A program made the translations under genes and the position numbers. The notes below the pieces were generated by a model. The model saw nothing but the letters and a program-made list of their open reading frames with translations, was not told the origin of the DNA and made no database searches. From Pseudomonas sp. BN411 (GTDB taxonomy: Bacteria > Pseudomonadota > Gammaproteobacteria > Pseudomonadales > Pseudomonadaceae), in contig NZ_SSOM01000064.1 in the NCBI RefSeq assembly GCF_029871235.1, positions 1 through 52,009 on the forward strand: a stretch of DNA of 52,009 bases. The letters run 5' to 3'. Below, in pieces: positions 3,793 to 47,129 of the stretch (its first letter is position 1; each line of letters begins with the position of its first letter).

Positions 3793-3806
3793 CTATCGAA
3801 AGATAG
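3793..3806. promoter_or_regulatory. CTATC-N4-GATAG operator, small secreted protein gene
   Basis: CTATCGAAAGATAG, a perfect copy of the cluster-wide palindrome, 61 bp upstream of the small ORF at 3868. A degraded look-alike (CTATTCCGAGATGG) precedes it at 3770-3783. Confidence 0.65.
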
Positions 3807-3867
3807 GACCTTTTTGAAACGCAAATAGAGACGCTATGGCTGTCCTGCTCCAACCAGAGGCATAGCC

Positions 3868-4044
3868 ATGAGAACAAAAATAATTTCCATCGGCCTCGCA
3901 GTTACCATCGCCATCCTGCTGATCGTCGCTGCCGCCCAAACCACCCCACAACGCTACACCGCAGACATCCCTGAAGCTTGCATGCATTCCAGCGTCAATT
4001 GCACATTGCCGCCGGGCTTTCGAGGCTGGCCTTCGATTCCGTGA
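3868..4044 (+). CDS. Small secreted or membrane-anchored hypothetical protein (58 aa)
   Basis: ATG with a CCAGAGG ribosome site 8 bases upstream opens a 58-residue frame. It has a basic N-terminus (MRTK), a hydrophobic stretch of about 18 residues (IISIGLAVTIAILLIVAAA), then a short polar tail with two cysteines. It looks like a signal peptide or single anchor plus a mini-domain exported to the periplasm. A perfect CTATC-N4-GATAG operator sits 61 bp upstream, so it appears to belong to the regulon. The last codons abut a fossil of a MalT-type regulator starting around 4028-4041, so the original C-terminus may have been altered by rearrangement. No function is recognised. Confidence 0.45.
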   Translation: MRTKIISIGLAVTIAILLIVAAAQTTPQRYTADIPEACMHSSVNCTLPPGFRGWPSIP

Positions 4045-4180
4045 GCCAACCGCGACCATAGTAATGCATACAACCTCCACGAGGCGCGCGACGAAGCCAC
4101 GCACTTAGCATGGACAGGTGTTGCCCCGGGCAGAAAATCGACTTCCCGGGGCATAAGGCCTGGCCCAAAAGGTGGCTTCG
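4028..4180 (+). pseudogene. Fossil fragment of a MalT/LuxR-type regulator
   Basis: About 140 bp align at roughly 80 percent identity, with small indels, to the C-terminal half of regulator B (27442-27577). The blocks GACGAAGCC, CTTAGCATGGACA and GTGTTGCCC are shared in the same order and spacing, and one frame still reads DEATHLAWTGVAPG against DEARALAWTRVAQAE. The reading frame is broken by indels, and neither the ATPase domain nor the LuxR helix-turn-helix remains. A run of ten G follows, then a hairpin terminator. I interpret it as debris of a third regulator copy or of a partial duplication of regulator B. Confidence 0.75.
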
Positions 4181-4220
4181 CTTGCTGTGAAGGAATTGGG
4201 GGGGGGGAAGGAGCAAGAGA

Positions 4221-4254
4221 AAGCGCCGGCGGGCAGCGCTCACCGGCGCTTTTT
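4221..4254. terminator. Hairpin terminator after the regulator fossil
   Basis: Stem AAGCGCCGG ... CCGGCGCTT with a T-run on the right and A-rich sequence on the left, so it could act in both directions. It separates the fossil from the convergent SDR gene. Confidence 0.6.
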
Positions 4255-4367
4255 CATTGGCGGGCAGTTCGGCCTCCGACCTCTACTTTGGCGGCTAGGG
4301 GTAGCGACAAGCGCTTGTACAGAACACCGAATGCATCCTGTACAAGAGGCACTAGGCAACAAGACGA

Positions 4368-5126
4368 TTACTGATGGTTCTCACGCCAGTTTTTCGGTAA
4401 CGGTCCAAGCGTAGTGCCGCCATCTACCAAATACTCACCGCCAGTAATAAAGCCCGAATCCTGGTGCGCAATAAACAACACCATACGGCTGATTTCTTCC
4501 GGCTGTGCCGCCCGCGGGATAGCCTGAATAGAAAGCATTCCACTGAGATCATGTGGCGCAGTCATCGGCGTGTGAACTGCCCCAGGGAACACCGCATTTA
4601 CTCGAATATTGTCGTGAGCGAGCTCCAACGCCGCCGCCTTAGTCAGACCACGCACGCCCCACTTGCTGGCGCAATAAGCAGAAGCCAAAGGATATCCCTG
4701 GACGGCGGCAGTGGAACCAATGTTGATGATACTGCCGCGACCCAGTTCCTTCATTCCAGCGACAACAGAGCAGATTCCAAGATATACGCCCGTAAGGTTG
4801 ATATCGAGCGTCCGTTGAAAAATGGCCTTCTCGCGGCCATCAAGCGGGTCAAAGCCAATAATACCGGCGTTATTAACTAATACAGAGACCAGACCAAAGG
4901 TGCGAGCCTGCTCCAGAGCAGCATCCCAAGACTCTTCATCAGTTACATCCAGAGTAACGAACATCGCACGTTCGCCCAACTCGTCTGCAAGCGCCTGGCC
5001 TTTGTCCTTTGCGATATCGCCAATGACAACATTCGCGCCCAGACGATGGAACGCGCGCGCATGAGACTCCCCCATGCCGCTGGCTGCGCCGGTAATCAGG
5101 ACAGTTTCATTTTCGAAGCTCATCAT
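4368..5126 (-). CDS. Short-chain dehydrogenase/reductase
   Basis: 252-residue classical SDR. Cofactor motif TGAASGMG at 12-19, NNAG at 85-88, catalytic S138, Y151 and K155 (YCASK), C-terminal DGGTT. It should oxidise or reduce an alcohol or ketone with NAD(P)(H) in the cytoplasm. The family includes 3-alpha/20-beta-hydroxysteroid dehydrogenase-like and benzylic or side-chain alcohol dehydrogenases; the substrate is not deducible. Two adjacent ATGs (5126, 5123) follow an AAGGA ribosome site. It is a single gene preceded, at 118 bp, by a perfect CTATC-N4-GATAG operator in a 20-bp palindrome, so it is very likely part of the regulon. Side-chain oxidation of the cluster substrate is a reasonable guess. 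Confidence 0.88.
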   Translation of the reverse strand: MMSFENETVLITGAASGMGESHARAFHRLGANVVIGDIAKDKGQALADELGERAMFVTLDVTDEESWDAALEQARTFGLVSVLVNNAGIIGFDPLDGREKAIFQRTLDINLTGVYLGICSVVAGMKELGRGSIINIGSTAAVQGYPLASAYCASKWGVRGLTKAAALELAHDNIRVNAVFPGAVHTPMTAPHDLSGMLSIQAIPRAAQPEEISRMVLFIAHQDSGFITGGEYLVDGGTTLGPLPKNWRENHQ

Positions 5127-5241
5127 CTTATTTATTTCCTTTTATGAGACTACTACTTAGAACGCATGTACATAAGCGTTTCAGCCGGGGACGGCCGATT
5201 TATCATGCCTATGCAGGCTAGACAAACATTCCAAGTAATTC

Positions 5242-5261
5242 CCCCTATCTGAGGATAGGGG
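5242..5261. promoter_or_regulatory. CTATC-N4-GATAG operator, SDR gene
   Basis: CCCCTATCTGAGGATAGGGG: the core motif at 5245-5258 extended to a 20-bp interrupted palindrome. It lies 118 bp upstream of the SDR start. It is 317 bp from the divergent demethylase at 5575, whose own promoter region (5262-5574) holds no second copy that I can see. Confidence 0.7.
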
Positions 5262-5574
5262 ATTAAGCACTCACACACGCTTATCTTGAGCCTATGCACA
5301 TCCGGAGCTTTTACTGCATCGAATCGGCCTCACTAGAAAATACCGATCGTGACATTGGCGGCGTAGGGACTAGGGCTTACATCACCGTCTCTTAGTGTCC
5401 AAACACCGTAAGAACACGCTGCTCATCGATTCAAATCTGTCCAAGTTAACCGCAATAACGCAAGTGTTACGCGCCGCGGCGGCAATCTCAGTTTTTATGT
5501 CCGAAGCTTGGAACTGGATGATAGCCGTTAACCTTTTGTTCGACACTTCAATACAAGAAAGTTAAGGAAATACC

Positions 5575-6915
5575 ATGAGCAAAGCAAATCCGCAGCCTCT
5601 ATACCACGTAGCGCAAGTACCGGACGACCCTCGCACCACCTCTTACACACGTTTCTTCTTCGAGCTTGAGCCCACGGAATACACCAACTGGATCGATGAG
5701 TGCGAGTCTTGGAAGAAAACTTGCTTCATCGGCGACTGGTCCCCGCTAATGAAACTGAAAATTACTGGGCCGGACGCTCTGTCTTTCTTCTCCTCAATTT
5801 CCGTAAACAGCTTTGCAAAATTCGACATCGGTCAAGCCAAACATGCGGTTCTTTGTAATGTATCCGGCAAGATAATGGGAGATGGCGTCCTGATGCGCCT
5901 CTCCGAAGAAAGCTTCATTTACACCAGTGGGCCCGGAGTCGCCTGGGCGATGTATCAATTTGCAAAGGGTAATTACAACGCCAAGGCCGAAGTCGTTACC
6001 GAAGACTATTTCGCATTCCAGGTCCAAGGCCCCAACTCCTTGCTTCTCCTGGAGGAGCTCACGGGCGAAAGTTTGCGCGACATCGGCTTCATGCGATTCC
6101 GCAAGTCCAGCATCAATGGCATGACCTTCAACGTGCTCCGCCAAGGCATGGCCGGTGAACTCGGATACGAACTTCACGGCGAGAGCCACAACGGTGTCGA
6201 AATCTACAACACGATTCTTAAGGTGGGAGAGCGATATGGCATCCGCCGTCTTGGCGGACGCAGCAAGATGGTGAATCACGTCGAAGCCTGCTTCCCCACA
6301 CCGACCGTGGACTATTTACCGGCAATGTTCGGTGACGATCAACGCGACTTTCTCGGTGTGATCCTGCAGAGCATGCCTTACTTCATGGAGTGGCTTGCTG
6401 TCGCCGGTAGTGCTCAAAGCAGGGACTTCACAACTTATGCCCGCACGCCGTTCGAGCTCGGCTGGGGTAAGAACGTGAAGTTCGACCACGAATTCATCGG
6501 TCGCGCCGCTCTAGAAGAAGCGGCCAATCCACGTCGGACAATGGTCACTCTCGTCTGGAATGGCGAAGATGTATCCGACGTTTCAGCCTCGTTTCTGAGC
6601 AAGGACGCAGAGCCATACACCTATATGGAAATGCCCCGAAACCTGCTGGGTTTGACCTGGATGGACAAAGTGCTAGTGGATGGCCACGAAATCGGCGTTT
6701 CGAGCTCGCGATGCTACAGCTACACCTTCCGCGAAATGCTGTCGTTGTGTGTTATCGACCAAGAGTACGCGACCCCAGGTACGGAGGTTGTAGTGGTTTG
6801 GGGCCATCCCGGCACCCGTCAGAAGCACATCCGCGCCCGCGTCGCGCCTGCCCCCTACAAGAAGGACAATCGTCGAATCGACGTCACCGGCCTTCCTTCA
6901 GCGCAAACCGTCTGA
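5575..6915 (+). CDS. Second LigM/DesA-like tetrahydrofolate-dependent aryl O-demethylase
   Basis: 446 residues, GcvT fold, full-length homologue of the protein at 109-1368. Shared blocks include NSFAKFDI, FQVQGPNS, LRQGMAGELGYELHG, FELGWGKNVKFDHEFIGRAAL and the end APAPYKKDNRR. It should move a methyl group from an aryl methyl ether to THF. The start has AAGGAA 7 bases upstream. It has an N-terminal extension of about 20 residues and a C-terminal extension of about 10 compared with the paralogue. It is followed by a terminator and the intradiol dioxygenase gene, both plus strand. Two diverged copies in one window suggest two methoxylated substrates (for example vanillate-like and hydroquinone-like rings), but specificity cannot be read here. 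Confidence 0.8.
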   Translation: MSKANPQPLYHVAQVPDDPRTTSYTRFFFELEPTEYTNWIDECESWKKTCFIGDWSPLMKLKITGPDALSFFSSISVNSFAKFDIGQAKHAVLCNVSGKIMGDGVLMRLSEESFIYTSGPGVAWAMYQFAKGNYNAKAEVVTEDYFAFQVQGPNSLLLLEELTGESLRDIGFMRFRKSSINGMTFNVLRQGMAGELGYELHGESHNGVEIYNTILKVGERYGIRRLGGRSKMVNHVEACFPTPTVDYLPAMFGDDQRDFLGVILQSMPYFMEWLAVAGSAQSRDFTTYARTPFELGWGKNVKFDHEFIGRAALEEAANPRRTMVTLVWNGEDVSDVSASFLSKDAEPYTYMEMPRNLLGLTWMDKVLVDGHEIGVSSSRCYSYTFREMLSLCVIDQEYATPGTEVVVVWGHPGTRQKHIRARVAPAPYKKDNRRIDVTGLPSAQTV

Positions 6916-7123: not shown

Positions 7124-8023
7124 ATGACTACCACTCTCGGTGATGAACGATTATCTCAACTGACAAACTCAGTCATTGCACAAATGTCTACAACACCCTC
7201 CACACGCCTACGCACGTTGATGGAATGCGCAGTTCGACATTTGCATGCATTTGCCATTGAAGCAAACCTGACACCTGAAGAATGGTTGACTGGAATTGCA
7301 TTTCTCACAGCGACCGGTCAAATGTGTAATAGCGATCGACAAGAGTTCATCCTCCTCTCGGATGCCCTCGGTCTGAGCACTATCGTTAATCTGCTTCAGG
7401 ATGGGAGTGGGGTAAACCAAGCCACCGAAAGCAGTCTGCTCGGTCCGTTCTATCGGGAGAATGCACCGAACTACCAGGCCAGTGAATCAATGGCACGCCG
7501 CTGCAATGGCCCCCAGCTTCAGCTCTATGGCCGAATCCTGAATACGGATGGAAATCCGATCCCCAATGCCACAGTGCAGATCTGGCAGACCGATTCAGAA
7601 GGGGTTTATGACATTCAGCGCGGACAGGAAATGGATACGCGGGGCGTCTACAGCACTGACGAGAACGGTTGTTACCATGCCTTCACGGTCATGCCGAAAA
7701 GCTACCCGCTACCTGACGACGGGCCGGTAAGACGCATGCTAGATGCCCAAAGTCGCCATGGGTACCGACCAGCTCATATCCACTACCTGATCAGCGCCCC
7801 CGAGCACAAAGAGCTCGTAACCGCCCTCTACATAGCTGGGGATTGCTACATCGATGACGACGCAGTCTTCGGAGTGAGTTCAACCACGCTGATCGTGACC
7901 CCAACCCTGGACAACAACGCTCCCCACCCTGAAGTACCAGCTATCTCGTACGACTTCCACTTGGCCCCTGGCATGACGGCAAGCGGTAGAATTGGTGCAG
8001 ACGTTGCCACATTGAGCTTCTAG
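7124..8023 (+). CDS. Intradiol ring-cleavage dioxygenase, hydroxyquinol 1,2-dioxygenase type
   Basis: 299 residues, the usual length for hydroxyquinol/catechol 1,2-dioxygenases. It has an N-terminal helical dimerisation region (1-105) and the LLGPFYRE lead-in to the beta-sandwich catalytic domain. Non-heme Fe(III) ligands are visible as Y162 (GVYDIQ), Y194 (PKSYPLPDDGP), H218 and H220 (RPAHIHYLI). The hydroxyquinol subgroup is favoured because a maleylacetate reductase, which uses the product, is encoded at 42933-43997. The reaction would be hydroxyquinol plus O2 to maleylacetate. Upstream 6952-7123 holds only a GATAG half-site (7027-7031). Alternatives are catechol or methoxylated-catechol cleavage. 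Confidence 0.82.
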   Translation: MTTTLGDERLSQLTNSVIAQMSTTPSTRLRTLMECAVRHLHAFAIEANLTPEEWLTGIAFLTATGQMCNSDRQEFILLSDALGLSTIVNLLQDGSGVNQATESSLLGPFYRENAPNYQASESMARRCNGPQLQLYGRILNTDGNPIPNATVQIWQTDSEGVYDIQRGQEMDTRGVYSTDENGCYHAFTVMPKSYPLPDDGPVRRMLDAQSRHGYRPAHIHYLISAPEHKELVTALYIAGDCYIDDDAVFGVSSTTLIVTPTLDNNAPHPEVPAISYDFHLAPGMTASGRIGADVATLSF

Positions 8024-8133: not shown

Positions 8134-9024
8134 CTAAGGCAGATTCGCGGCTAGGAACTCCGCCCCCTGGAGCAAGGCAGCATCACCCTCCTCCAACTCT
8201 GACGCATGGTTGTGCCAGAGATGGAACATATTCGGCCACACGTCCAATCTCACCCGCACTCCCATCCCACCTGCGTGCCTTGCCAGCCTAAGCGAGTCAT
8301 CGAGAAGCAATTCGTTTGAGCCCACCTGTATCATCATGGGGGGCAATCCGATCATGCTGTTCTGCAGCACTGACACTCTTGGATCTACCGCGGAAATCTC
8401 TCCCAAGTAAAGAGAGGCGCAGTTCGCCAGCCACTCTGGGGTAAGGCAAATGTCGCTAGCTGCTTTGGTCGTGAAGCTCTCGTGCTGCAAACTGAGGTCG
8501 ACCCAAGGCGATATAAGAAGTGCCGCTGCGGGCAAAGGTAGACATTGGCACTTAGCATCTTCCAGCAACGAAAGAATCAGATTCGCCCCTGACGAATCTC
8601 CTGCGAACACTATTTCTTCCGCAGCAATACCATTGCCAAGAAGCGCATGGTAAGCAGCAAGAATGTCTTCGCGTGCAGACGGGAATGGGTGTTCGGGTGC
8701 CAAACGATAGTCAAGGATCAACGCCCGTGCACCCGCCTGCAGAGCCAGATTGCCGGCCAGCCCCACGAAGGCCTCGGCAGATCCCAACACAAACCCTCCA
8801 CCATGCACGTATACGAGTGTCCTGGACCCGACGTAGTCCTCTGGGATGGCCCACATCGCACTTACACCGTTCAGGTTAACCCGCTCCACCTGCATATCTG
8901 CCGGGGGCTGCAACTGTTTACAACGGGTATCAAAACTGAACCGCGCCAACTCCAGAGAGCTGAAATTCCGCATATGGGTATCAGGAAAATGCTGAGCGAG
9001 TGCTGGAGGTCGAGGCTGGGTCAT
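8134..9024 (-). CDS. HSL-family alpha/beta-hydrolase (carboxylesterase)
   Basis: 296 residues from the ATG at 9024. The hormone-sensitive-lipase signature is complete: oxyanion HGGG at 74-77, nucleophile S144 in GDSSG, catalytic acid near 238 (Glu where Asp is more usual) and H268. It hydrolyses carboxylic esters, probably of a substrate or early intermediate. The frame continues upstream to 9081, but the first seven of those codons come from the IS66 left end. Reconstructing the uninterrupted locus shows an in-frame stop 11 codons upstream of the duplication and no start codon before 9024, so the coding sequence is intact and only its leader is split. The operator that should drive it is now at 11521-11534, beyond the IS. 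Confidence 0.85.
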   Translation of the reverse strand: MTQPRPPALAQHFPDTHMRNFSSLELARFSFDTRCKQLQPPADMQVERVNLNGVSAMWAIPEDYVGSRTLVYVHGGGFVLGSAEAFVGLAGNLALQAGARALILDYRLAPEHPFPSAREDILAAYHALLGNGIAAEEIVFAGDSSGANLILSLLEDAKCQCLPLPAAALLISPWVDLSLQHESFTTKAASDICLTPEWLANCASLYLGEISAVDPRVSVLQNSMIGLPPMMIQVGSNELLLDDSLRLARHAGGMGVRVRLDVWPNMFHLWHNHASELEEGDAALLQGAEFLAANLP

Positions 9025-9060: not shown

Positions 9061-9160
9061 GTAAGCGTCCAGCCAAGTCACCTTCCGAACTCCAGCATTA
9101 AGGGCGATGGTGTCCGCGTATTTTTAAGCGGACGCGATAGCCCTTATCGCCGGGATTTCC

Positions 9161-9478
9161 ATGCGCCAACGAAGCTCTTACCCCAAATTATTCAAGGCCC
9201 AGGTTGTTCAGGAATGCCTGCAACCCGGTGCGACCCTCTCCAGCGTTGCCATCAGCCACGGCATCAACGCCAACGTCATCCGCAAGTGGCTACCGCTTTA
9301 CCGAGATCAGCCACCAGCGGCGTTGCCGGCGTTCGTTCCATTGAGGGCCACGCCCAAACGAACCACTGAGGCGTTCGCAATCATTGAGTTGTCCCTTGGC
9401 GAGCAAGCGGTCACGGTGAAATGGCCAGCCTCCGATCCTGAAGGTTGCGCCCGCTTTGTGCGTGGGCTCACCCCGTGA
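9161..9478 (+). CDS. tnpA: IS66 TnpA
   Basis: 105-residue first protein of IS66 elements, with an IS3/Tnp_1-like helix-turn-helix (FKAQVVQECLQPGATLSSVA, then HGINANVIRKWL). It is required as an accessory transposition protein. Its TGA stop overlaps the GTG start of tnpB, so the two are translationally coupled. Confidence 0.85.
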   Translation: MRQRSSYPKLFKAQVVQECLQPGATLSSVAISHGINANVIRKWLPLYRDQPPAALPAFVPLRATPKRTTEAFAIIELSLGEQAVTVKWPASDPEGCARFVRGLTP

Positions 9479-9810
9479 TCCGCATCGATACCATCTGGCT
9501 CGCCACCGAGCCGATGGACATGCGCGCCGGCACCGACACCGCGTTGGCCCGTGTGGTGGCCGTGTTCGGTGCGGCGAAGCCGCACTGTGCCTATCTGTTC
9601 GCGAATCGCCGCGCCAACCGCATGAAAGTCCTGGTGCATGACGGCGTGGGTATCTGGCTGGCCGCGCGGAGATTAAACCAGGGCAAGTTTCACTGGCCAG
9701 GCATCCGGCATGGCTCGGAGGTCGAGCTCGACACCGAGCAACTTCAGGCTTTGGTTCTTGGCCTACCCTGGCAGCGTGTCGGCGCCGCCGGCGCGATCAC
9801 AGTGCTGTAG
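9475..9810 (+). CDS. tnpB: IS66 TnpB (Orf2-like accessory protein)
   Basis: 111 residues from the GTG at 9475, overlapping the tnpA stop by four bases. It has the conserved opening IRIDTIWLATEPMDMRAGTD and the FANRRANRMKVLVHDG block typical of IS66 Orf2. The precise role in transposition is not established from sequence. Confidence 0.88.
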   Translation: MIRIDTIWLATEPMDMRAGTDTALARVVAVFGAAKPHCAYLFANRRANRMKVLVHDGVGIWLAARRLNQGKFHWPGIRHGSEVELDTEQLQALVLGLPWQRVGAAGAITVL

Positions 9811-9871
9811 CACCTGCCATTAGCCCATCGGTTTATCTCCGCTGACCGCCGGCTCTGGCACAATCAGCGGC

Positions 9872-11398
9872 ATGACTGCTTCGCCCAATCTCGACCAACT
9901 GACTCCTGACCAGCTGCGCGCCCTGGCTGCGCAGTTGCTCACGCAGGTCGACGTGATGGGCAAGAAGATCCACCGCGACCAAACGGTGATCGAGAACCTC
10001 ACCCACGAAATCGCCATCCTCAAGCGGCACAAGTTTGCCAAGCGCAGCGAGCAACTGAGCCCTGACCAGGGCCGCCTGCTGGATGACCTGCTCGACACCG
10101 ACATCGTGGCCATCGAGGCGGAGCTGAAAGCGGTCAATCCGCCGGCTGCGCCGGCCGAAGCACGCCAGCAGCCCAAGCGTGCACCGCTGCCACCGCAACT
10201 CCCGCGCACCGTGATCCATCACGAACCGGAGAACACCCAGTGCGTCTGCGGCTGCCAGCTGCAACGCGTGGGTGAAGACGTCAGCGAAAAGCTGGATTAC
10301 ACGCCGGGCGTGTTCACCGTCGAGCAGCATGTGCGTGGGAAATGGGCCTGCCGCCAGTGCGAAACGCTGATCCAGGCGCCGGTGCCGGCGCAGGTGATCG
10401 ACAAGGGTATCCCCACCGCTGGCCTGTTGGCGCACGTGATGGTGGCCAAATTCGCCGACCACCTGCCGCTGTACCGGCAGGAAAAGATCTTCGGCCGTGC
10501 CGGCCTGGCTATCGCTCGTTCGACGCTGGCGCAGTGGGTCGGGCAAACCGGCGTGCAGCTCCAGCCGCTGGTCGATGCGCTGCGCGAAGCGGTGCTGGGC
10601 CAACGCGTGATCCACGCTGACGAAACCCCGGTGCAAATGCTCGCGCCGGGCGAAAAGAAAACCCATCGGGCTTACGTCTGGGCCTACAGCACCACGCCCT
10701 TCGCCGATCTGAAGGCCGTGGTCTACGACTTCAGCCCCAGCCGTGCCGGCGAGCATGCGCGCAATTTTCTTGGCCAGTGGAATGGCAAGCTGGTCTGCGA
10801 CGACTTTGCTGGCTACAAGGCCGGTTTCGAGCAAGGCATCACCGAAATCGGCTGCATGGCCCACGCCCGCCGCAAGTTCTTCGATCTGCACGCGGCGAAC
10901 AAAAGCCAACTGGCTGAACAAGCGCTGCACTCGATCGCTGGGCTGTACGAAGTCGAACGCCAAGTGCGCGACATGAGCGATGAAGAACGCGGGCGAATAC
11001 GGCAGGAAAAGGCCTCACCGATCCTCGCCGCGCTGCATGACTGGATGCTGGCCCAACGTGATCGGGTGCCCAACGGATCAGCCACGGCGAAAGCCTTGGA
11101 TTACAGCCTCAAACGCTGGCAGGCACTGACTCGCTATGTCGAGGATGGTGCTGTGCCCATCGACAATAACCAAGTCGAGAACCAGATCCGCCCGTGGGCT
11201 CTAGGTCGCTCCAATTGGCTGTTTGCCGGGTCGCTACGCAGCGGCAAACGGGCGGCGGCAATCATGAGCCTGATCCAGTCGGCCCGCATGAACGGACATG
11301 ATCCGTATGCCTATCTCAAGGACGTGCTGACACGACTGCCGACGCAGCGAGCAAGTGATATCGGCCAACTGCTGCCGCATCAGTGGGTGCCTGCCTGA
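9872..11398 (+). CDS. tnpC: IS66 transposase TnpC
   Basis: 508 residues: N-terminal leucine-rich coiled region, a cysteine cluster (CVCGCQ ... CRQC) forming the IS66 zinc finger, then the DDE transposase domain with HADETPVQ, CDDFAGYKAGF and DNNQVENQIRPWALGRSNWLFAGS. It has an IS66 C-terminal domain. Full length, no frameshift, so the element should be competent for movement. Confidence 0.93.
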   Translation: MTASPNLDQLTPDQLRALAAQLLTQVDVMGKKIHRDQTVIENLTHEIAILKRHKFAKRSEQLSPDQGRLLDDLLDTDIVAIEAELKAVNPPAAPAEARQQPKRAPLPPQLPRTVIHHEPENTQCVCGCQLQRVGEDVSEKLDYTPGVFTVEQHVRGKWACRQCETLIQAPVPAQVIDKGIPTAGLLAHVMVAKFADHLPLYRQEKIFGRAGLAIARSTLAQWVGQTGVQLQPLVDALREAVLGQRVIHADETPVQMLAPGEKKTHRAYVWAYSTTPFADLKAVVYDFSPSRAGEHARNFLGQWNGKLVCDDFAGYKAGFEQGITEIGCMAHARRKFFDLHAANKSQLAEQALHSIAGLYEVERQVRDMSDEERGRIRQEKASPILAALHDWMLAQRDRVPNGSATAKALDYSLKRWQALTRYVEDGAVPIDNNQVENQIRPWALGRSNWLFAGSLRSGKRAAAIMSLIQSARMNGHDPYAYLKDVLTRLPTQRASDIGQLLPHQWVPA

Positions 11399-11429
11399 AT
11401 CACGCAAGGTGAGTTCGGCGTACGCTTAC

Positions 11430-11520: not shown

Positions 11521-11534
11521 CTATCGCAAGATAG
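11521..11534. promoter_or_regulatory. CTATC-N4-GATAG operator stranded from the esterase by IS66
   Basis: CTATCGCAAGATAG. Removing the IS and one duplication copy puts this site 119 bp upstream of the esterase ATG at 9024, the same spacing as for the SDR (118), DUF1302 (117) and frmA (117) genes. It therefore marks the original esterase promoter region, which now lies 2.4 kb away. Confidence 0.7.
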
Positions 11535-15238: not shown

Positions 15239-15384
15239 AGCTTTGTCCACGGGGCGATTAAACCCCTATTTGTTATTATCTTTACGAGCCCATTACTCAG
15301 CGAATGAACTAGCCACCTTCACGCGGATCCCGAAGAATCCTAGCGTCTAGGCTAAAATCTACACCGACCTGAAGAGCGCATAAC

Positions 15385-15398
15385 CTATCTTAAGATAG
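15385..15398. promoter_or_regulatory. CTATC-N4-GATAG operator, YCF48-MMPL operon
   Basis: CTATCTTAAGATAG, a fully self-complementary 14-mer (spacer TTAA included), 146 bp upstream of the YCF48-like start. Confidence 0.7.
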
Positions 15399-17240: not shown

Positions 17241-17254
17241 CTATCAAAAGATAG
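17241..17254. promoter_or_regulatory. CTATC-N4-GATAG operator, DUF1302 gene
   Basis: CTATCAAAAGATAG, 117 bp upstream of the DUF1302 ATG. An extra half-site GATAG lies between them at 17213-17217. The same 14-mer drives the flavin monooxygenase (37783). Confidence 0.72.
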
Positions 17255-20032: not shown

Positions 20033-20163
20033 CTCGAACCTCCGTCAGGGCGGTAGGTAGCCTCTTGTAGTGACGCTTCAGCCAGTGAAAGTCTCGCTAG
20101 CTAGCTTCTTCTTATCAGGTCAGCGCGGGCGGCGCGGCCCGTATCATTGAATGCGCGAATCGA

Positions 20164-20188
20164 GGGGGGCACAGGCAGTCTGCCCCCC
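20164..20188. terminator. Strong hairpin past the DUF1329 stop
   Basis: GGGGGGC ... GCCCCCC stem with a T-rich flank on the right. It lies just beyond the DUF1329 stop, between that gene and the regulator A leader, and probably ends DUF1329 transcripts. Confidence 0.5.
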
Positions 20189-20198
20189 TTTCTTTTCG

Positions 20199-21785: not shown

Positions 21786-21799
21786 CTATCGATGGATAG
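21786..21799. promoter_or_regulatory. CTATC-N4-GATAG operator, DUF1329 gene
   Basis: CTATCGATGGATAG, 225 bp upstream of the DUF1329 start. A CTATC half-site at 21685-21689 may act with it. Confidence 0.6.
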
Positions 21800-24664: not shown

Positions 24665-24678
24665 CCATCCAAAGATAG
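24665..24678. promoter_or_regulatory. One-mismatch CTATC-N4-GATAG operator, small protein gene
   Basis: CCATCCAAAGATAG (CTATC changed to CCATC), 174 bp upstream of the small ORF at 24853 and 632 bp upstream of regulator B. Confidence 0.45.
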
Positions 24679-25074: not shown

Positions 25075-25310
25075 GTCGCTAAACCCGCGATTGACGACCG
25101 CACGAGACACCAGCGCTTGAGCAATTGGGAAGCCTGCTCACGGGGCTTTCGACTCGAAGGCACGATGTTGCCTCAACGTCTGCAACGCGGCCATGGGATG
25201 GCTAGCGCGGCAGCAATACGCTAGGGTTGAGCTACCCGCCAGGCCACCTTGCTGCTGCAGAGTTACTTCGGCATATTCCGCTGAGGGTACCAATACCAAT
25301 AAGAAGAGCT

Positions 25311-28088
25311 ATGGCCATGATTCCTGCCTCTACTAAGGACCAAGGGCCGCACAACCGTGACGCCCTTGAACCGAACCAGATATATCTGATCGCATCCAGA
25401 CTGCAGCCACCGGTTGACGCTCGCAACCTTGTAGCCCGAGCGAAGCTAAGCAGCTTGGTACTATCGGGTGCGCATAAAACGCTGACGCTTGTGAGTTCGC
25501 CGGCAGGCTACGGCAAAACCTGCTTGCTAGCCGAGCTCCAGCAGGAGCTGCAAAAGTCAGGGATGCAGACTGCTTGGCTCTCGATAACCCCACTAGACCA
25601 GAGCCTGCCGGTCTTCAGTGCCTATCTCCGAGCAGCCATCGAGCTGGCATCCAATGTGGATCAAATCCATGGCCCGATTAGTCGGGTTGGCTCCAACACA
25701 CTAAGTGAAGCCTTCAATCGAACCATGGCCCTGATTGAGGCGAGCGAAGAATCCCCGCTGTACCTCTTTCTGGATGATGTTCACCATTTGGCAGGCACCG
25801 ACTCGGTGCGTCTCCTCTCCATGCTCATCGACCACACTCCGCAAGGAGTACGATTTGTACTCTCCTTTCGTGGCGAGCCATGTCTGTCAGTCGCAAGACA
25901 CCGAATGCATGGCAAAGTGACTGACTTTACCAGCCAGGACCTACGTTTCGAAGAAAACGAAACGACCGCTTTGCTGGCGGCAGACGCAGTGACAGCAATC
26001 ACCCCCGAAGACATTCGGTCCTTGGTACAGCGCCTTGAAGGGTGGGCAGGAGGTCTGAAGCTGGCTGCGCTGCTACTTAAGCGCACTCCCGAGCTTATTC
26101 AAGACCTAAAGAACTTTAGCGGCGAACGGCGCCAATTTGCCGACTTCTTCCTTCAAGATGTCTTGGCAGATCAACCTAACGACGTTCAAGAGTTCCTTAT
26201 TTTGACGTCGATACTTTCCACCTTGAATGCTTCCACCTGTAACTTCCTGACAAAACGCACTGACGCCCAGCAAAAACTTCTTCAGTGTCTTTCCCAAGGG
26301 CTTTTTCTACTCCCATTGGATGGCGAAAATCGGGACTTCCGACTACATCCATTATTCTCTGAATTCCTCTATCGCACACTACTGGAGCGATATTCAGATC
26401 GAGTGTCAGAACTTCACATCAGCGCAAGTCGAGTTCTTGAAAACACCGGCAATTTTAACGAAGCATTTAGTCATGCGATCCAGGCGCAAGATGATCTGCG
26501 GGCCGCCGAGATAATGAACTCTCATTTGGAGGAAATTTTTGACGCCAAGGAAGAAGCCTTAGCACTGGTCAAGAAAATCCCTATGGATACTATGATGGAG
26601 TATCCAAAGATTGTCATGGCCCATGTATGGAAGCTTCTGACACTTTGGCAGTTCGAGACTTGCAAAAGGCTGCTCTCTACACTCCGACAGCGCTTGGACG
26701 AGAAAGAGAGAAAGAATGGTATTAATGAAGAGTCTCGCGAGCTACGCCTCATTTTCCATCATCGCGAAATGATGCTATCACTACTCTCCGACAACCTGGA
26801 AAACGTTGAAGAAAGTGCACAGTATTTAATTGATAACTATCATGACGCACACCCTCTTCTTAAAGGCAGCCTTTATAGTTCACTGATGTACGCTCGACGG
26901 GAGCGCTTCAAGTTCGATGATATGGAGCGCCTTAACTCTCTCGCCCTCGAGTATTTCAGTAACTTTGAACGCGGGCTTACCGATATATACCACCAAGCGA
27001 TGATCGGCCCCTCCCGATTCGTAGCGGGTCAGACGCGTCGTGCTATCGATGAATTAAATGTGGCTTTACAACTGGCTGAAAAGATTGACGGGAAAGGCTC
27101 ACCATTAGCCGCGCTGATTGCCATGCATCTCGCCAAAATCCACTACGAGTTGGACGATCTGGAACAATCACGCGAGCTGCTCTCCCAATACCTACCCTCT
27201 GCGAGCCAAAGGGGCTTTGTAGATCAGGCAATCGCTGGTTGGCTAACCGCCGCACGACTGGCGATGATCGATGGAAAGCCCACTAAAGCCTTTAGCCTAC
27301 TCGATGAAGCTGACGCCTTTGCTGCGAAACACCAGTTTGATCGCTTGAAGTTCTTCAGTCTTGCTGAGCGCTTGAAGCTTCTGTTGCGTCGAGGTGAGAT
27401 CGATGACGTAATTCGCCTCGGTAAGAAGCATGGCTTGCGCGGAGAGCCAGCCGCAACAGTAGCACCGCACGCAACCTCTAGGAGCCGCGACGAAGCCAGA
27501 GCCTTAGCATGGACACGTGTTGCCCAGGCAGAAGATCGAATTCCCGAGGCAATAGGCTTGGCCAAGCAGTGGCACCGCTACCTTAACGGCAGAGATGCCG
27601 TGAGGAGCTGCCTCCGTTGGGAGTTGGTGATAGCCCACTTGCTACTCCTCTCCGGAGACAAACGGGCCGCACAGCGCACGCTGAGAGAGGCGTTATCAAC
27701 AGCTGAACCTGGTGGCTTTATTCGCTTGTTCCTCGATGAAGGTGCCTGGCTCGAAGGCTTGCTTAAAGAACAACTGGAGAGCACTCCTACTAGCGAGAAA
27801 ACAGGAGACGCATTTGCTCTGACAGTTCTTGAACACATGGGCGGCAGCCCGAGCCAAGCGGCGAAGCTCACGGCCGAGGACGTTCCAGTTATCGGCGCCT
27901 TTAATACTAGGGAAATGGAAATCCTGTTAATGGTCTCTGCCGGCATGCTGAACCGCGAGATAGGCAACAGGCTTGGTATGACCGAGGGATCGGTGAAATG
28001 GTACCTGCAGCAGATCTATGACAAGCTCGGAATCCGGCGCCGCTCTCAAGCGGTGGAACGCGCCAGGCAGTTGGGGATCATTCAGTAG
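25311..28088 (+). CDS. MalT-type (LAL) LuxR-family regulator B
   Basis: 925 residues from ATG 25311 (GAAGAG ribosome site; the frame is open further upstream to 25227 but only from a TTG without a site). Canonical P-loop SPAGYGKT at 63-70 with K69, Walker B LYLFLDD, long TPR-like middle region, C-terminal LuxR helix-turn-helix (FNTREMEILLMVSAGMLNRE, then MTEGSVKWYLQQIYDKL). The DNA-contacting helix is almost the same as in regulator A (TEG-VKWYLQQ shared), implying a common or overlapping operator. A fragment of a close relative survives at 4028-4180. It is the best candidate for the activator acting at CTATC-N4-GATAG, with an inducer that is probably a CoA- or free-form pathway metabolite. 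Confidence 0.92.
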   Translation: MAMIPASTKDQGPHNRDALEPNQIYLIASRLQPPVDARNLVARAKLSSLVLSGAHKTLTLVSSPAGYGKTCLLAELQQELQKSGMQTAWLSITPLDQSLPVFSAYLRAAIELASNVDQIHGPISRVGSNTLSEAFNRTMALIEASEESPLYLFLDDVHHLAGTDSVRLLSMLIDHTPQGVRFVLSFRGEPCLSVARHRMHGKVTDFTSQDLRFEENETTALLAADAVTAITPEDIRSLVQRLEGWAGGLKLAALLLKRTPELIQDLKNFSGERRQFADFFLQDVLADQPNDVQEFLILTSILSTLNASTCNFLTKRTDAQQKLLQCLSQGLFLLPLDGENRDFRLHPLFSEFLYRTLLERYSDRVSELHISASRVLENTGNFNEAFSHAIQAQDDLRAAEIMNSHLEEIFDAKEEALALVKKIPMDTMMEYPKIVMAHVWKLLTLWQFETCKRLLSTLRQRLDEKERKNGINEESRELRLIFHHREMMLSLLSDNLENVEESAQYLIDNYHDAHPLLKGSLYSSLMYARRERFKFDDMERLNSLALEYFSNFERGLTDIYHQAMIGPSRFVAGQTRRAIDELNVALQLAEKIDGKGSPLAALIAMHLAKIHYELDDLEQSRELLSQYLPSASQRGFVDQAIAGWLTAARLAMIDGKPTKAFSLLDEADAFAAKHQFDRLKFFSLAERLKLLLRRGEIDDVIRLGKKHGLRGEPAATVAPHATSRSRDEARALAWTRVAQAEDRIPEAIGLAKQWHRYLNGRDAVRSCLRWELVIAHLLLLSGDKRAAQRTLREALSTAEPGGFIRLFLDEGAWLEGLLKEQLESTPTSEKTGDAFALTVLEHMGGSPSQAAKLTAEDVPVIGAFNTREMEILLMVSAGMLNREIGNRLGMTEGSVKWYLQQIYDKLGIRRRSQAVERARQLGIIQ

Positions 28089-32431: not shown

Positions 32432-32449
32432 TTTCAATGCCCTCCAAGT

Positions 32450-33742: not shown

Positions 33743-33756
33743 CTATCTAAGGATAG
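33743..33756. promoter_or_regulatory. CTATC-N4-GATAG operator, P450 operon
   Basis: CTATCTAAGGATAG, 111 bp upstream of the P450 start, in the gap between the P450 operon and the stop of the metallo-beta-lactamase gene. Confidence 0.72.
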
Positions 33757-35838: not shown

Positions 35839-35852
35839 CTATCTTTAGAAAG
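35839..35852. promoter_or_regulatory. One-mismatch operator, Rieske-lactonase unit
   Basis: CTATCTTTAGAAAG (GATAG changed to GAAAG), 113 bp upstream of the Rieske start codon, the usual position. Confidence 0.6.
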
Positions 35853-36349: not shown

Positions 36350-36363
36350 CTATCGAAAGATAG
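36350..36363. promoter_or_regulatory. Orphan CTATC-N4-GATAG operator
   Basis: CTATCGAAAGATAG, perfect and identical to the site at 3793, with extra half-sites CTATC at 36336-36340 and GATAG at 36365-36369. The nearest downstream start on either strand is the Rieske gene 625 bp away, so no intact gene is at the usual distance. Confidence 0.6.
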
Positions 36364-37782: not shown

Positions 37783-37796
37783 CTATCAAAAGATAG
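37783..37796. promoter_or_regulatory. CTATC-N4-GATAG operator, flavin monooxygenase
   Basis: CTATCAAAAGATAG, 102 bp upstream of the flavin monooxygenase start, identical to the DUF1302 operator at 17241. Confidence 0.7.
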
Positions 37797-40900: not shown

Positions 40901-40914
40901 CTATCCAAGGATAG
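40901..40914. promoter_or_regulatory. CTATC-N4-GATAG operator, hydrolase-reductase unit
   Basis: CTATCCAAGGATAG, 64 bp upstream of the hydrolase start; the plus-strand operons show a shorter spacing (61-76) than most minus-strand ones. Confidence 0.7.
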
Positions 40915-42842: not shown

Positions 42843-42856
42843 CTATCTTTCGATAG
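42843..42856. promoter_or_regulatory. CTATC-N4-GATAG operator, maleylacetate reductase operon
   Basis: CTATCTTTCGATAG, 76 bp upstream of the maleylacetate reductase start. Confidence 0.72.
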
Positions 42857-42932: not shown

Positions 42933-43997
42933 ATGCAACCATTTTCCTACAACGCACTTCCTGCGCGTGTGATATTTGGCTTCGATACGCTTCGCCAGGT
43001 TGCTGAAGAAGTTCAGCTACTTGGATGCAAACGCGCGCTTGTTCTATCAACGCCGCATCAAAAGGCAGAAGCGCAGCATTTATCGAATTCCCTCGGGGAG
43101 CTGTCAGTCGGTACGTTCACTGAGGCCACCATGCACACTCCCGTCGAAGTTACGGCGCGGGCGGTGGAGCACGTCAAGCGCCTAGACGCTGACTGCGTCA
43201 TTGCTCTTGGGGGAGGATCGACAATCGGCCTTGGCAAAGCCATCGCACTTAACACCGACCTTCCCCAGATCGCCATTCCGACCACTTATGCCGGGTCGGA
43301 AGCCACCCCGATCCTCGGCCAGACCGAAAAGGGTATCAAGACCACACAGCGGACCCTAAAGGTCCTGCCGGAAGTCATCATCTATGACGTGGAGCTTACC
43401 CTTACCCTCCCGGCGCAGCTGACTGTCACGTCCGGTCTGAACGCAATTGCTCACGCTGTCGAGGCGCTGTATTCGAAAGATGCCAACCCACTGATTTCGA
43501 TGCTTGCCGAGCAAGGCATTGCCGCAATTGCCCGCGCCATTCCTCGCATCCATGCCAACCCAAATGATCGCGAAGCACGCTCCGATGCCCTCTTTGGCGC
43601 TTGGGCGTGCGGTACCTGTTTAGGCGCGGTAGGCATGTCCCTGCACCACAAGCTGTGCCACACGCTCGGCGGCAGCTTCGATCTACCGCACGCGGAGACC
43701 CATACCGTGGTGCTTCCTCATGCGGTTGCCTACAACGCGTCGGCTGCTCCGGAAGCCATAGCGCGTGTTGCCCGAGCGCTCGGAGTCGATGACGCAGCCA
43801 AGGGGCTGTACGACTTGGCCACCAAGCACGGTGCTCCGAAAAGCCTCGCTGACATCGGCCTTCGTAGAGAAGACGTGGCGCGCGCGGCTGACATCGCCTG
43901 TGCCTCCCCTTACTGGAACCCCCGAACGATCGAACGAGCAAGCATCGGCGAGCTCCTCGAAAACGCTTTCCTCGGCATCCGTCCTAACTCCAACTAA
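42933..43997 (+). CDS. Maleylacetate reductase
   Basis: 354 residues, iron-containing-alcohol-dehydrogenase fold, usual length for maleylacetate reductases. N-terminal PARVIFGFDTLRQVAEEV, nucleotide-binding CVIALGGGSTIGLGKAIAL, and the active-site HHKLCHTLGGSFDLPHAETH block specific to this group. Reduces maleylacetate to beta-ketoadipate with NAD(P)H. First gene of a five-gene operon with a GAGGAG ribosome site. It joins both ring-cleavage routes of the window: hydroxyquinol via the intradiol enzyme at 7124 and hydroquinones via the next gene. Confidence 0.93.
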   Translation: MQPFSYNALPARVIFGFDTLRQVAEEVQLLGCKRALVLSTPHQKAEAQHLSNSLGELSVGTFTEATMHTPVEVTARAVEHVKRLDADCVIALGGGSTIGLGKAIALNTDLPQIAIPTTYAGSEATPILGQTEKGIKTTQRTLKVLPEVIIYDVELTLTLPAQLTVTSGLNAIAHAVEALYSKDANPLISMLAEQGIAAIARAIPRIHANPNDREARSDALFGAWACGTCLGAVGMSLHHKLCHTLGGSFDLPHAETHTVVLPHAVAYNASAAPEAIARVARALGVDDAAKGLYDLATKHGAPKSLADIGLRREDVARAADIACASPYWNPRTIERASIGELLENAFLGIRPNSN

Positions 43998-45664: not shown

Positions 45665-46575
45665 GCTTGCCAAGCATTGGCTTCATCGGCTTGGGGACCA
45701 TGGGCGAACCAATGGCTACCAGGCTGGTAGAAGCAGGTTATTCGCTGACGGTTTTTGATCTCAACACTAGTTCGGTGAGCCGCCTCGTAGCGATGGGCGC
45801 AACCTCCGCCCACAGTCCGGCCGAAGTTGCAGCTCAAGCCGAAATCGTACTCGCCAGCTTGCCGACCCCCGACATCATGCTCAAGGTCGCTCTGGGTGAA
45901 AACGGCGTCTGCAACGGTGGCAAGGTCCGAGTGTTCATCGACCTGTCCACATCTGGCCCGCGGGCAGCCAAGCAGCTTGCCAGCGGACTGGCAGCACATG
46001 ACATCACAGCGCTCGATTGTCCTGTGAGTGGCGGAGCGGCAGGAGCCCGCAAAGGGACGCTCGCCTTGATGGTGTCGGGTCCTGAGCGCGAGCAAGCGGA
46101 GACGACCCCGATCCTGAAAAACCTCGGGAAAGTCATTTCCTGCGGCAACGAACCAGGTCTGGGTCAGACGATGAAGTTAGTGAACAACCTGGTCTCGGTC
46201 ACGGCTTTGGCAGTTTCCTGCGAAGCCTTGGTAATGGGCGTTAAAGCCGGGCTGGATGCGAAGGTCATGCTCGACGTCTTCAATGCTGGAAGTGGCCGTA
46301 ACAGTGCAACCACCGACAAGCTCCCTCGAGCGATCCTCCCTCGCACGTTCGACTTCGGGTTCACCACCGGCCTGTCACTGAAGGACACCCGCATCTGCCT
46401 GGAAGAAGCCGAGGCCATGGGTGTGCCGATGCCCGTCGGGAGTGCCGTGCGGCAGGTTCTGAACATGACCCGCGCAACTTACGGCGAGGGAGCTGACTTC
46501 ACTCGAATTGCCTGCCTCATCGAACAGTGGGCGGGCATCGAAATGCCTGCGATTCAAGTCCAAGACAACGCATAG
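45661..46575 (+). CDS. Beta-hydroxyacid dehydrogenase family protein
   Basis: 304 residues, 3-hydroxyisobutyrate/tartronate-semialdehyde reductase family: N-terminal FIGLGTMGEPMATRL NAD motif, DCPVSGGAAGA substrate loop, KLVNNL catalytic lysine segment. Usual length. It overlaps the upstream esterase by four bases (ATGA). Oxidises or reduces a 3-hydroxy acid or semialdehyde. Here it may act on a ring-fission semialdehyde or a short side-chain fragment; not resolvable further. Confidence 0.88.
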   Translation: MSLPSIGFIGLGTMGEPMATRLVEAGYSLTVFDLNTSSVSRLVAMGATSAHSPAEVAAQAEIVLASLPTPDIMLKVALGENGVCNGGKVRVFIDLSTSGPRAAKQLASGLAAHDITALDCPVSGGAAGARKGTLALMVSGPEREQAETTPILKNLGKVISCGNEPGLGQTMKLVNNLVSVTALAVSCEALVMGVKAGLDAKVMLDVFNAGSGRNSATTDKLPRAILPRTFDFGFTTGLSLKDTRICLEEAEAMGVPMPVGSAVRQVLNMTRATYGEGADFTRIACLIEQWAGIEMPAIQVQDNA

Positions 46576-46584
46576 GAATAGAGA

Positions 46585-46971
46585 ATGAACCGAGAGCTTT
46601 TTGAAAAGGGCTTTGCCAATCGTAAAGCCGTACTGGGTGCAGAACACGTCGAGCGTTCTTACGCTGCAGCGGATAGCTTCAATAAGCCGATGCAGGAGCT
46701 GGTTACTGAGTACTGCTGGGGCGCGGTATGGGGTGATGAAACCCTCCCGTTCAAAACGCGGAGCATCATCAACCTTGCTGCACTGACAGCGATGAACCAA
46801 CACCACGAACTGGGCGTCCACGTGAAAGGTGCCTTGACCAACGGTGTCACTCGGGAAGAAATCCGTGCTGTGCTAATGCAGGCTGCAATTTACTGCGGCG
46901 TGCCGGCTGCTCTTGCTGCTTTCCGAGTAGCCAGCGAGGCAATCAAGGCTTGGGATGCTGAACACGCCTGA
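46585..46971 (+). CDS. PcaC-like carboxymuconolactone decarboxylase family protein
   Basis: 128 residues, AhpD/CMD fold. The block RSYAAADSFNKPMQELVTEY, CWGAVWGDETLPFKTRS and NGVTREEIRAVLMQAAIYCG is collinear with 4-carboxymuconolactone decarboxylase PcaC. It may decarboxylate a lactone from a carboxylated ring-cleavage product or remove CO2 from an intermediate peculiar to this pathway. It ends the operon, and a terminator follows. No pcaB or pcaD is in the window, so a plain protocatechuate role is not supported by context. Confidence 0.85.
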   Translation: MNRELFEKGFANRKAVLGAEHVERSYAAADSFNKPMQELVTEYCWGAVWGDETLPFKTRSIINLAALTAMNQHHELGVHVKGALTNGVTREEIRAVLMQAAIYCGVPAALAAFRVASEAIKAWDAEHA

Positions 46972-46978
46972 GTCATCA

Positions 46979-47008
46979 AAGAACCCGCTCTGCAATGGAG
47001 CGGGTTCT
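46979..47008 (+). terminator. Terminator of the maleylacetate reductase operon
   Basis: AGAACCCGCTC ... GAGCGGGTTCT hairpin 8 bp past the last stop codon. Confidence 0.8.
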
Positions 47009-47115
47009 GATCCAAACCTCGTGCATCAAAACGACAGTTGCGAGTTCAAGACCATGAGTCCTCATCAGTTGCGTGACGACTCTCCTTCCTAGCCTGTCAC
47101 GCCCTACCCCTGGGG

Positions 47116-47129
47116 CAATCGTTCGATAG
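47116..47129. promoter_or_regulatory. One-mismatch CTATC-N4-GATAG operator, frmA
   Basis: CAATCGTTCGATAG (CTATC changed to CAATC), 117 bp upstream of the frmA start, matching the spacing of other regulon members. The remaining gap 47009-47246 shows nothing else. Confidence 0.5.

Follow-up and report, generated by a model that had tools for sequence, protein, structure and literature searches.

A palindromic sequence predicted to serve as operator of MalT/LAL-type activators across a catabolic gene cluster of Pseudomonas sp. BN411

Gene content of the cluster

The window, which comprises the 52,009 nucleotides of contig NZ_SSOM01000064.1 of Pseudomonas sp. BN411, harbors two genes for MalT/LAL-type regulators, here named RegA and RegB, together with a LysR and a GntR/FCD protein and numerous genes whose products resemble enzymes and transporters of aromatic breakdown. 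The coordinates of the predicted operators and of the main genes discussed below are given in Table 1. During gene calling, two open frames were discarded, namely 20151-21545 (+), opposite to which the minus-strand frame encodes the DUF1329 protein, and 48852-50258 (-), in favor of a plus-strand dehydrogenase (48963-50177). Downstream of site 3793, the 58-aa frame was accepted as a gene and further short frames were not.

Table 1. Predicted operators (CTATC-N4-GATAG) and selected genes in the window. Offsets are distances in bp from the site to a -10-like hexamer.
Feature	Position	Strand	Context
Operator, exact	3793..3806	+	61 bp before gene of a 58-aa small secreted-looking protein (3868-4044); no clear -10 at offset 23
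Operator, exact	5245..5258	.	Between divergent SDR (start 5126, -) and GCVT-type O-demethylase (start 5575, +); -10-like hexamers at 24 (SDR side) and 23 (GCVT side)
GCVT-type O-demethylase, LigM/DesA relative	5575..6915	+	Below curated cut-offs of LigM/DesA families
Intradiol dioxygenase	7124..8023	+	Nearest PnpC and hydroxyquinol 1,2-dioxygenases
IS66-family insertion	9061..11429	+	About 2.37 kb; 8-bp target duplication GGTGCTGG; between operator 11521 and hydrolase gene
Operator, exact	11521..11534	-	Faces alpha/beta-hydrolase gene 8134-9024 (-); TATTCT at 23
Operator, exact	15385..15398	-	BNR/YCF48 gene (14147-15250) and MMPL transporter (11734-14145); TAGATT at 23
Operator, exact	17241..17254	-	DUF1302 gene (15495-17123); TATCTT at 24, higher-scoring TAAATT at 29
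RegA, MalT/LAL-type regulator, 910 aa	17300..20032	-	Recognition helix EGCVKWYLQQ
Operator, exact	21786..21799	-	DUF1329 gene (20199-21560, -), then RegA in same direction; weak TACCGT at 23, TTGATT at 41 with slightly higher score
One-mismatch copy	24665..24678	+	Intergenic, flanked by MCP and RegB, the latter 632 bp downstream; convincing promoter lacking
RegB, MalT/LAL-type regulator, 953 aa as open frame	25227..28088	+	First ATG 25311; recognition helix EGSVKWYLQQ
Operator, exact	33743..33756	-	P450 (32450-33631) and four downstream genes (to 28561); TAGTTT at 23
One-mismatch operator	35839..35852	-	VanA-like Rieske oxygenase (34688-35725) and metallo-hydrolase (33805-34641); CACAAT at 23
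Operator, exact	36350..36363	.	Minus strand: no called gene within 600 bp downstream; no convincing promoter
Operator, exact	37783..37796	-	FAD monooxygenase, PnpA-like (36403-37680); weak -10
Operator, exact	40901..40914	+	Alpha/beta-hydrolase (40979-41803) and VanB-like reductase (41826-42785); weak -10
Operator, exact	42843..42856	+	Maleylacetate reductase (42933-43997), then hydrolase, dehydrogenase and CMD-family genes (to 46971), probably co-transcribed; TATTTT at 22
One-mismatch operator	47116..47129	+	frmA, glutathione-dependent formaldehyde dehydrogenase (47247-48365); weak -10

The distances from the sites to the called starts were 118 bp for the SDR gene, 117 for DUF1302, 111 for P450, 113 for the VanA-like oxygenase, 102 for the FAD monooxygenase, 117 for frmA, 64 for the alpha/beta-hydrolase, 76 for the maleylacetate reductase, 225 for DUF1329, and 134 for the BNR gene (146 from a second possible start). 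These values agree with the spacings listed in an earlier note made from the sequence alone, including that of DUF1329; a small-protein gene placed there at 174 bp was not identified, the accepted small gene being the one next to site 3793. Most sites precede operons, whereas no convincing promoter could be assigned to 24665 and 36350. Site 11521 no longer adjoins its alpha/beta-hydrolase gene because the IS66 element sits between them; its counterpart in a near-identical cluster (genome G007) lies approximately 119 bp from the gene. The RegB gene has no good operator close upstream, the nearest copy being mismatched and distant. The GCVT-type and intradiol dioxygenase genes are probably members of the regulon as well.

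Distribution of the palindrome

Scanning the window for CTATC-N4-GATAG returned 11 exact and three one-mismatch copies and no further ones, precisely the 14 sites previously listed, compared with 0.87 copies on average, and three at most, in 100 dinucleotide shuffles of the window (up to one mismatch). As had been claimed, all 14 lie between genes, outside the 39 called genes that cover 83% of the window, and the motif is selective, since the window scan found no copy upstream of vanA/vanB and the LysR-side genes. The even scatter through the genome that the earlier note had named as counter-evidence was not seen: in the whole genome (6.37 Mb), 11 of the 12 exact palindromes are on the contig of the window, where they precede several operons, and the twelfth is within open reading frames on contig 56, the reversed control pattern occurring once. 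With up to one mismatch allowed, the genome contains 56 palindrome sites versus 52 for the control, so that one-mismatch sites outside the window represent background. The oriented extended pattern CTATCNNNNGATAGGT had, at the same tolerance, 17 of its 20 genome matches inside the window (control, seven in the genome); since four sites match on both strands, these 17 represent 13 of the 14 sites.

Inspection of the copies revealed that the spacers vary from copy to copy and that symmetric conservation is confined to the 14-bp core, the preceding base being C in 3 of 25 cases and the following base G in 24 of 25. The symmetry thus does not extend over the approximately 20 bp of a lux-box-like or AlkS-like inverted repeat, and the sites are single rather than arranged in direct repeats as MalT boxes are.

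Spacing to the predicted -10 element

Scored with a self-made -10 matrix based on general base preferences, the gene side of the 14 window sites exhibited a peak of -10 similarity exactly 23 bp after the site, reached by 2 of 20,000 random rotations; the opposite side showed no peak (12,903 of 20,000). Seven exact sites of a related cluster in a congeneric genome (G005; 15 of 20,000) and 16 plasmid orientations (32 of 20,000) gave the same offset, so that the geometry of a class II activator, with a site beside the -35 position and a fixed -10 distance, appeared in three data sets. At exactly 23 bp, the hexamer TAnnnT was found in 10 of 42 oriented sites overall (expected, 0.56), but in no more than 4 of the 14 window sites and 2 of the 7 exact G005 sites. 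A good -10 at this offset is missing at sites 3793, 24665, and 36350 and, less clearly, at 37783, 40901, 47116, and 21786.

Such a constant spacing of 23 bp between site and -10-like hexamer identifies the palindrome, as far as sequence can tell, as a predicted activator operator. That the regulators would mainly repress at these sites is improbable: even though palindromic operators are common among repressors, with the -10 at offset 23, the sites end near -36 and do not cover the -10. Poor -35 positions, reading GTnnTn for the most part, likewise fit activator-dependent promoters. One LAL protein, SCO6993, is reported as a negative regulator in an excerpt of PMC9628970, whereas AlkS and MalT are activators according to excerpts of PMC8784404 and PMC6099782.

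RegA and RegB

Both regulators have the size and architecture of LAL proteins, of about 900 residues with an N-terminal ATPase, and in both the MalT-type TPR region (PF17874) and the LuxR helix-turn-helix (PF00196) exceeded the Pfam cut-offs. RegB additionally exhibited AAA_16 above the cut-off and a match to the MalT N-terminal structure 8bob (E 1.6e-38), and its Walker motifs, of which the A motif is intact, read GYGKT and LFLDD. The ATPase-domain matches of RegA fall below the Pfam cut-offs, and its Walker motifs read GYGRS, with lysine replaced by arginine, and FIDD. Over the length of RegA, the two proteins are 39% identical, and the near-identity of their recognition helices reported earlier was borne out by an identical VKWYLQQ core.

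The altered Walker A motif of RegA, which also reads GYGRS in G007, raises the possibility that one regulator alone, most likely RegB, acts at the operators, with RegA serving as modulator or competitor or representing a decaying copy. The G005 cluster, which has the same operator and a single RegB-like regulator, points in this direction as well. We nevertheless regard this reading as rather unlikely, since RegA retains the recognition core, its G007 counterpart is 96% identical, and regulator pairs seem to recur elsewhere (P0013 with P0020, and P0007 with P0019).

Co-occurrence of recognition helix and palindrome

The motif was sought beside homologous regulators in other genomes, as the earlier note had suggested. 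Exact palindromes were found in all seven loci of at least 42 kb whose regulator carries the helix EG[STC]VKWY[LM]QQ, spread over alpha-, beta-, and gammaproteobacteria, and in none of 13 loci of at least 18 kb with other MalT/LAL helices, including a further LAL protein of the window's own genome. Among the seven is the G005 cluster, which is rearranged and combines its seven exact palindromes with clear counterparts (38-85% identical) and one regulator of the RegA/RegB type (53% identical to RegB); five others are distant and plasmid-borne. The whole records of these five plasmids (3.22 Mb) contain 12 exact copies (reversed control, 0), 9 of them no more than 20 kb from the regulator, compared with two copies in 8.65 Mb of seven plasmids outside the helix-positive set (reversed control, 2). 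The helix carriers form one clade (support 0.998; 0.991 without the last 80 residues, which hold the DNA-binding domain), and the helix-positive loci are therefore not independent events.

Even loci with regulators of only 31-34% identity retain the palindrome. This retention, along with the differing spacers, the intergenic position of every window copy, and the preferred spacing to the -10, leaves almost no probability for a chance or selfish (REP-like) repeat devoid of operator role, in favor of which we see nothing beyond the shortness of the palindromes. It is very improbable that a different regulator reads the palindrome, for instance the LysR or GntR/FCD protein, both of which the window encodes. 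The LAL regulator is the sole protein family present in all seven loci, the next best families reaching five (frames of at least 150 aa, E 1e-8, 60% coverage, in loci picked by regulator and not by motif), and the LysR and vanA upstream regions lack the palindrome.

A search of 369 genomes of the class for more helix-positive loci yielded one, a 4,455-bp contig with the helix EGSIKWYMQQ and no palindrome copy; no new one appeared in 398 genomes of the phylum or in the orders of G788 (seven genomes) and G604 (two genomes). Searching genome contigs with RegA alone returned one locus, in Pseudomonas taiwanensis xwS3, and searches of plasmid DNA gave, among the matches listed (20 of 106 and 20 of 141), only IS66, IS3, and formaldehyde dehydrogenase genes. 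Elsewhere in the family, single genomes contain as many as 11 copies of the reversed control, so that raw per-genome counts are not telling by themselves and clustering is. A genome with eight exact palindromes (G027) was rejected as a further cluster, its copies being scattered over seven contigs.

Proposed mechanism and relation to known systems

Taken as a whole, these observations are best explained, with a high degree of confidence, by CTATC-N4-GATAG being the predicted dimer operator of a distinct MalT/LAL clade whose members would activate the operons of the cluster; very probably, the palindrome is the docking site by which this MalT-like branch switches breakdown pathways on. The local regulon read by MalT/LuxR-type regulators, as first proposed, is thus supported by the -10 spacing, the G005 cluster, and the co-occurrence with the helix, from which we infer binding. 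RegB, with or without its paralogue RegA, would be switched on by some compound of the pathway, a methoxylated aromatic or breakdown product being probable, and the activated STAND ATPase-LuxR protein would multimerise and set its helix-turn-helix on the palindrome, usually followed by GT on the gene side. The operator ends directly at the position of the -35 hexamer (17 bp upstream of the -10), so that contact between activator and RNA polymerase would be of the class II type. Genes turned on would include those for uptake (DUF1302, DUF1329, BNR, and MMPL) and, co-induced with them, those for O-demethylation (VanA/VanB-like and GCVT-type), the P450 and the monooxygenase, hydroxyquinol dioxygenase, maleylacetate reductase, and formaldehyde disposal (frmA), with a possible feedback on RegA through the DUF1329 operon.

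To our knowledge, few MalT/LAL regulators have a known operator. The 5-N4-5 spacing is similar to that of the DosR box. DosR/DevR-type and NarL-type response regulators share the helix-turn-helix family (1zlk, 1je8) and differ in half-site sequence and in having receiver domains, where RegA and RegB carry an ATPase-TPR sensor. MalT of Escherichia coli has the same architecture as RegA and RegB, whereas its sites are decanucleotides in direct repeat (PMC6099782, in excerpt); likewise, the excerpt presents TpdR of Rhodococcus jostii TMP1 as a LAL activator of a catabolic operon, with a 15-nt direct repeat as its proposed site. AlkS of Pseudomonas putida GPo1 is described in the excerpt of PMC8784404 as a LAL activator of alkane genes that acts, with feedback on its own gene, through an upstream inverted repeat of 20 bp present at the alkB and alkS promoters. 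Judged by that description of AlkS rather than by its sequence, the present system differs in having a 14-bp palindrome at about a dozen promoters instead of a 20-bp repeat at two. No description of the operator was found among the titles and abstract openings listed (20 of 552 in one search, for instance), a coverage that leaves most subscription journals outside and does not establish absence from print.

More tentatively, the pairing may constitute a clade-wide code, in which the helix EG[STC][VI]KWY[LM]QQ stands for the palindrome 23 bp before the -10 and renders regulons readable by pattern search, with RegA and RegB, one with a degenerate ATP site, integrating two signals on the same dozen operators, possibly in the form of a mixed oligomer. 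MalT/LAL regulators are found with many catabolic clusters whose substrate is unknown; if the pairing is true, sequence alone would suffice to recognise clade members and their target promoters, the limits of regulons in unknown pathways could be drawn, and ready-made inducible promoters would be at hand for sensors of lignin-type aromatics. The cluster is, moreover, an example in which two paralogous activators seem to rely on a common set of operators.

Distribution of the proposed operator

A pattern search of the window for the palindrome CTATC-N4-GATAG recovered the 14 copies listed in the earlier note (11 exact, three with one mismatch) and none additional, and all 14 lie outside called genes, as had been claimed. 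The genome-wide scan that the note had proposed placed 11 of the 12 exact copies in the window (genome of 6,373,962 bases; one copy of the reversed pattern, our background count); under random placement, the binomial probability of at least 11 of 12 falling in the window contig would be near 1e-22. The twelfth exact copy is within open frames of contig 56. Allowing up to one mismatch, the genome holds 56 sites, a total resembling the 52 of the control, so one-mismatch copies outside the window are uninformative. When the pattern was extended by GT at its 3' end, again at up to one mismatch, 17 of 20 genome matches are in the window contig (control, seven matches). The proposed selectivity also stood, since no copy accompanies vanA/vanB, whose neighbour is a GntR-type gene, or the genes of the LysR side.

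Among 18 genomes sampled from the genus, including the window's own, more than two exact copies were found in three: the window's own (12), G007 (13, of which 11 are in the same cluster with gene order kept) and G005 (10, of which seven are inside 38 kb). The next highest count among 298 evenly drawn family genomes was eight, spread over seven contigs of G027; as the reversed control reaches 11 copies in one other family genome, clustering and not raw copy number is informative. In the G005 cluster gene order differs, clear counterparts are 38-85% identical, and there is one regulator of the kind of RegA and RegB, the two MalT/LAL-type regulators of the window (53% identical to RegB, 40% to RegA); a second LAL, 27% identical, lies elsewhere on the same contig. 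One G005 copy stands 82 bp ahead of a zinc-dependent dehydrogenase open frame, the true start of which is possibly further in. Judging from the annotation of the plasmid gene matched by its window counterpart, formaldehyde disposal seems tied into the putative G005 regulon, as frmA is in the window.

Gene content of the cluster

Gene identities rest on family matches and solved relatives, and gene starts are our own calls by ribosome-site matches. The cluster looks like one for the breakdown of methoxylated aromatics, the presumed substrates, via hydroxyquinol. The leader that connects operator 11521 with an alpha/beta-hydrolase gene is interrupted by an IS66 insertion with an 8-bp target duplication (GGTGCTGG); in G007 operator and gene are about 119 bp apart, with no interruption. 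At 55.4%, the GC content of the window is below that of two further stretches from its genome (65.5% and 59.3%), which suggests an acquired island.

Features of the window and of related loci (window coordinates unless a locus is named)
Feature	Coordinates	Strand	Basis or remark
GCVT-type O-demethylase			Relative of LigM
Intradiol dioxygenase			Best matches PnpC and hydroxyquinol 1,2-dioxygenases
Maleylacetate reductase			Matches three entries at 443-455 bits, two of them so named
FAD monooxygenase			PnpA-like
VanA-type oxygenases			Two
VanB-like reductases			Two; VanB label our own
P450, hydrolases, frmA			Further cluster genes
DUF1302, DUF1329, BNR/YCF48, MMPL			Uptake-type set; role in uptake presumed
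Zinc-dependent dehydrogenase, glutathione-independent formaldehyde dehydrogenase type	48963-50177	+	Family match; match to plasmid gene so annotated; counterpart of G005 dehydrogenase
Longer open frame overlying the dehydrogenase	48852-50258	-	Rejected; probably spurious
58-aa open frame	3868-4044		Signal-peptide-like start; directly after operator
IS66 insertion	9061-11429
RegA	17300-20032	-	910 aa
RegB	25227-28088	+	953 aa
272-aa protein of P450 operon	31619-32437		Without Pfam match
Operator 36350	36350-36363		Exact; additional half-site-like run adjoining
1120-aa open frame adjoining G005 cluster	L002, 1176-4538		Without Pfam match
F420 biosynthesis genes and F420-dependent oxidoreductase	L043 and L045, 20000-42000		Beside catabolic genes; alphaproteobacterial plasmid clusters carrying the same operator

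Predicted promoter geometry

Each site was oriented to its nearest downstream gene and scored with a home-made -10 matrix at offsets of 5-49 from the site to the -10 hexamer. With each of the 14 window sites taken in a single orientation (for site 5245 the other one was excluded, and for 36350 it was set by eye), the best offset was 23, equalled by two of 20,000 random rotations; no -10 peak appeared on the opposite side of these sites, where 12,903 of 20,000 rotations reached the score. Offset 23 was found again for the seven exact G005 sites (15 of 20,000 rotations) and for 16 plasmid orientations (32 of 20,000), comprising nine exact sites, four of them taken both ways, and three of 10 one-mismatch sites. 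With all 42 orientations pooled, no rotation in 20,000 reached the score at offset 23. The -10 is weak at some sites, and TAnnnT stands exactly at this offset in 4/14 window, 2/7 G005 and 10/42 overall.

In 25 Pseudomonas sites (the 14 of the window and 11 of G005, namely seven exact and four of five with one mismatch, the fifth excluded by us), the hexamer has A at its second position 17 times and T at its sixth 21 times; the base following the site is G in 24 and the next T in 18, and the base preceding it shows no conservation. If the -10 stands at offset 23, the operator is followed at once by a 6-base -35 and then by a 17-bp spacer, which would put the operator itself at about -49 to -36. 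Two divergent promoters may share site 5245, which is flanked by -10-like hexamers; one of them would be that of the O-demethylase and hydroxyquinol dioxygenase genes. No gene was called within 600 bp downstream of site 36350, which may be explained by an uncalled small gene, a small RNA or a long leader.

Co-occurrence of motif and recognition helix

A plasmid protein search with RegB gave eight records, of which five (31-34% identity) were analyzed; the remaining three were a second Croceicoccus record, locus L059, taken in later, and one left out. Using the Massilia regulator as a further query gave 32 records, nine more of which were analyzed, and LAL loci of genomes G000, G788, G770 and G1062 were added. 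The note had suggested looking for the motif beside homologous regulators, and exact copies were present in all seven loci of at least 42 kb with the recognition helix EG[STC]VKWY[LM]QQ: window, 11; G005, seven; Novosphingobium, three; Massilia and Caballeronia, two each; Agrobacterium and Croceicoccus, one each (G007, nearly identical to the window, was left out). Exact copies were found in none of 13 other-helix loci of at least 18 kb, in none of 27 short loci (about 5.7 kb; C-terminus unreadable in two) and not in L039, a 4.5-kb contig with helix EGSIKWYMQQ. All nine plasmid copies lie between annotated genes, in an incomplete annotation, four of them in the gap that separates the regulator gene from a divergent one. 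Over whole records, five helix-positive plasmids hold 12 copies in 3.22 Mb (control, zero) and seven others two in 8.65 Mb (control, two), two further records being left out.

Across 614 open frames of the seven loci, the regulator was the sole family common to all, which rules out other common readers and does not prove the regulator, as the loci were picked by it. In trees of 43 regulators, the 19 proteins that carry the helix, with either V or I as its fourth residue, form a single clade (support 0.998, and 0.991 after removal of the final 80 residues), and the helix-positive loci share a common ancestry. The sister group has helices ENTVKWYWQR and ESTVKWYWQR/K, and the motif is absent from both of its loci with DNA.

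The two regulators

RegA and RegB are assigned to the LAL regulators by architecture. MalT sites are direct repeats (PMC6099782), in contrast to the palindrome of the window, and a 20-bp inverted repeat is described for AlkS (PMC8784404), from which the window operator differs by length. We take this to be a new, putative regulator-operator pair, unusually extensive and readable.

The near-identical helices ascribed to the two proteins (EGCVKWYLQQ in RegA, EGSVKWYLQQ in RegB) do have VKWYLQQ in common, at 39% overall identity. RegB is predicted to be the likelier main binder of the operators, as the G005 cluster manages with a single RegB-like protein. RegA follows DUF1329 on the same strand (DUF1329 stop at 20199, RegA start at 20032), and operator 21786 may feed back on RegA via the DUF1329 operon; such possible feedback on a regulator gene, together with the putative activation of a catabolic cluster, would be AlkS-like. 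The Walker A motif of RegA reads GYGRS, with arginine for lysine, in both the window and G007; the arginine is also found in the homologues P0013 and P0018, and lysine is kept in P0020, for which the longest contig has the same length (42,346) as for P0013.
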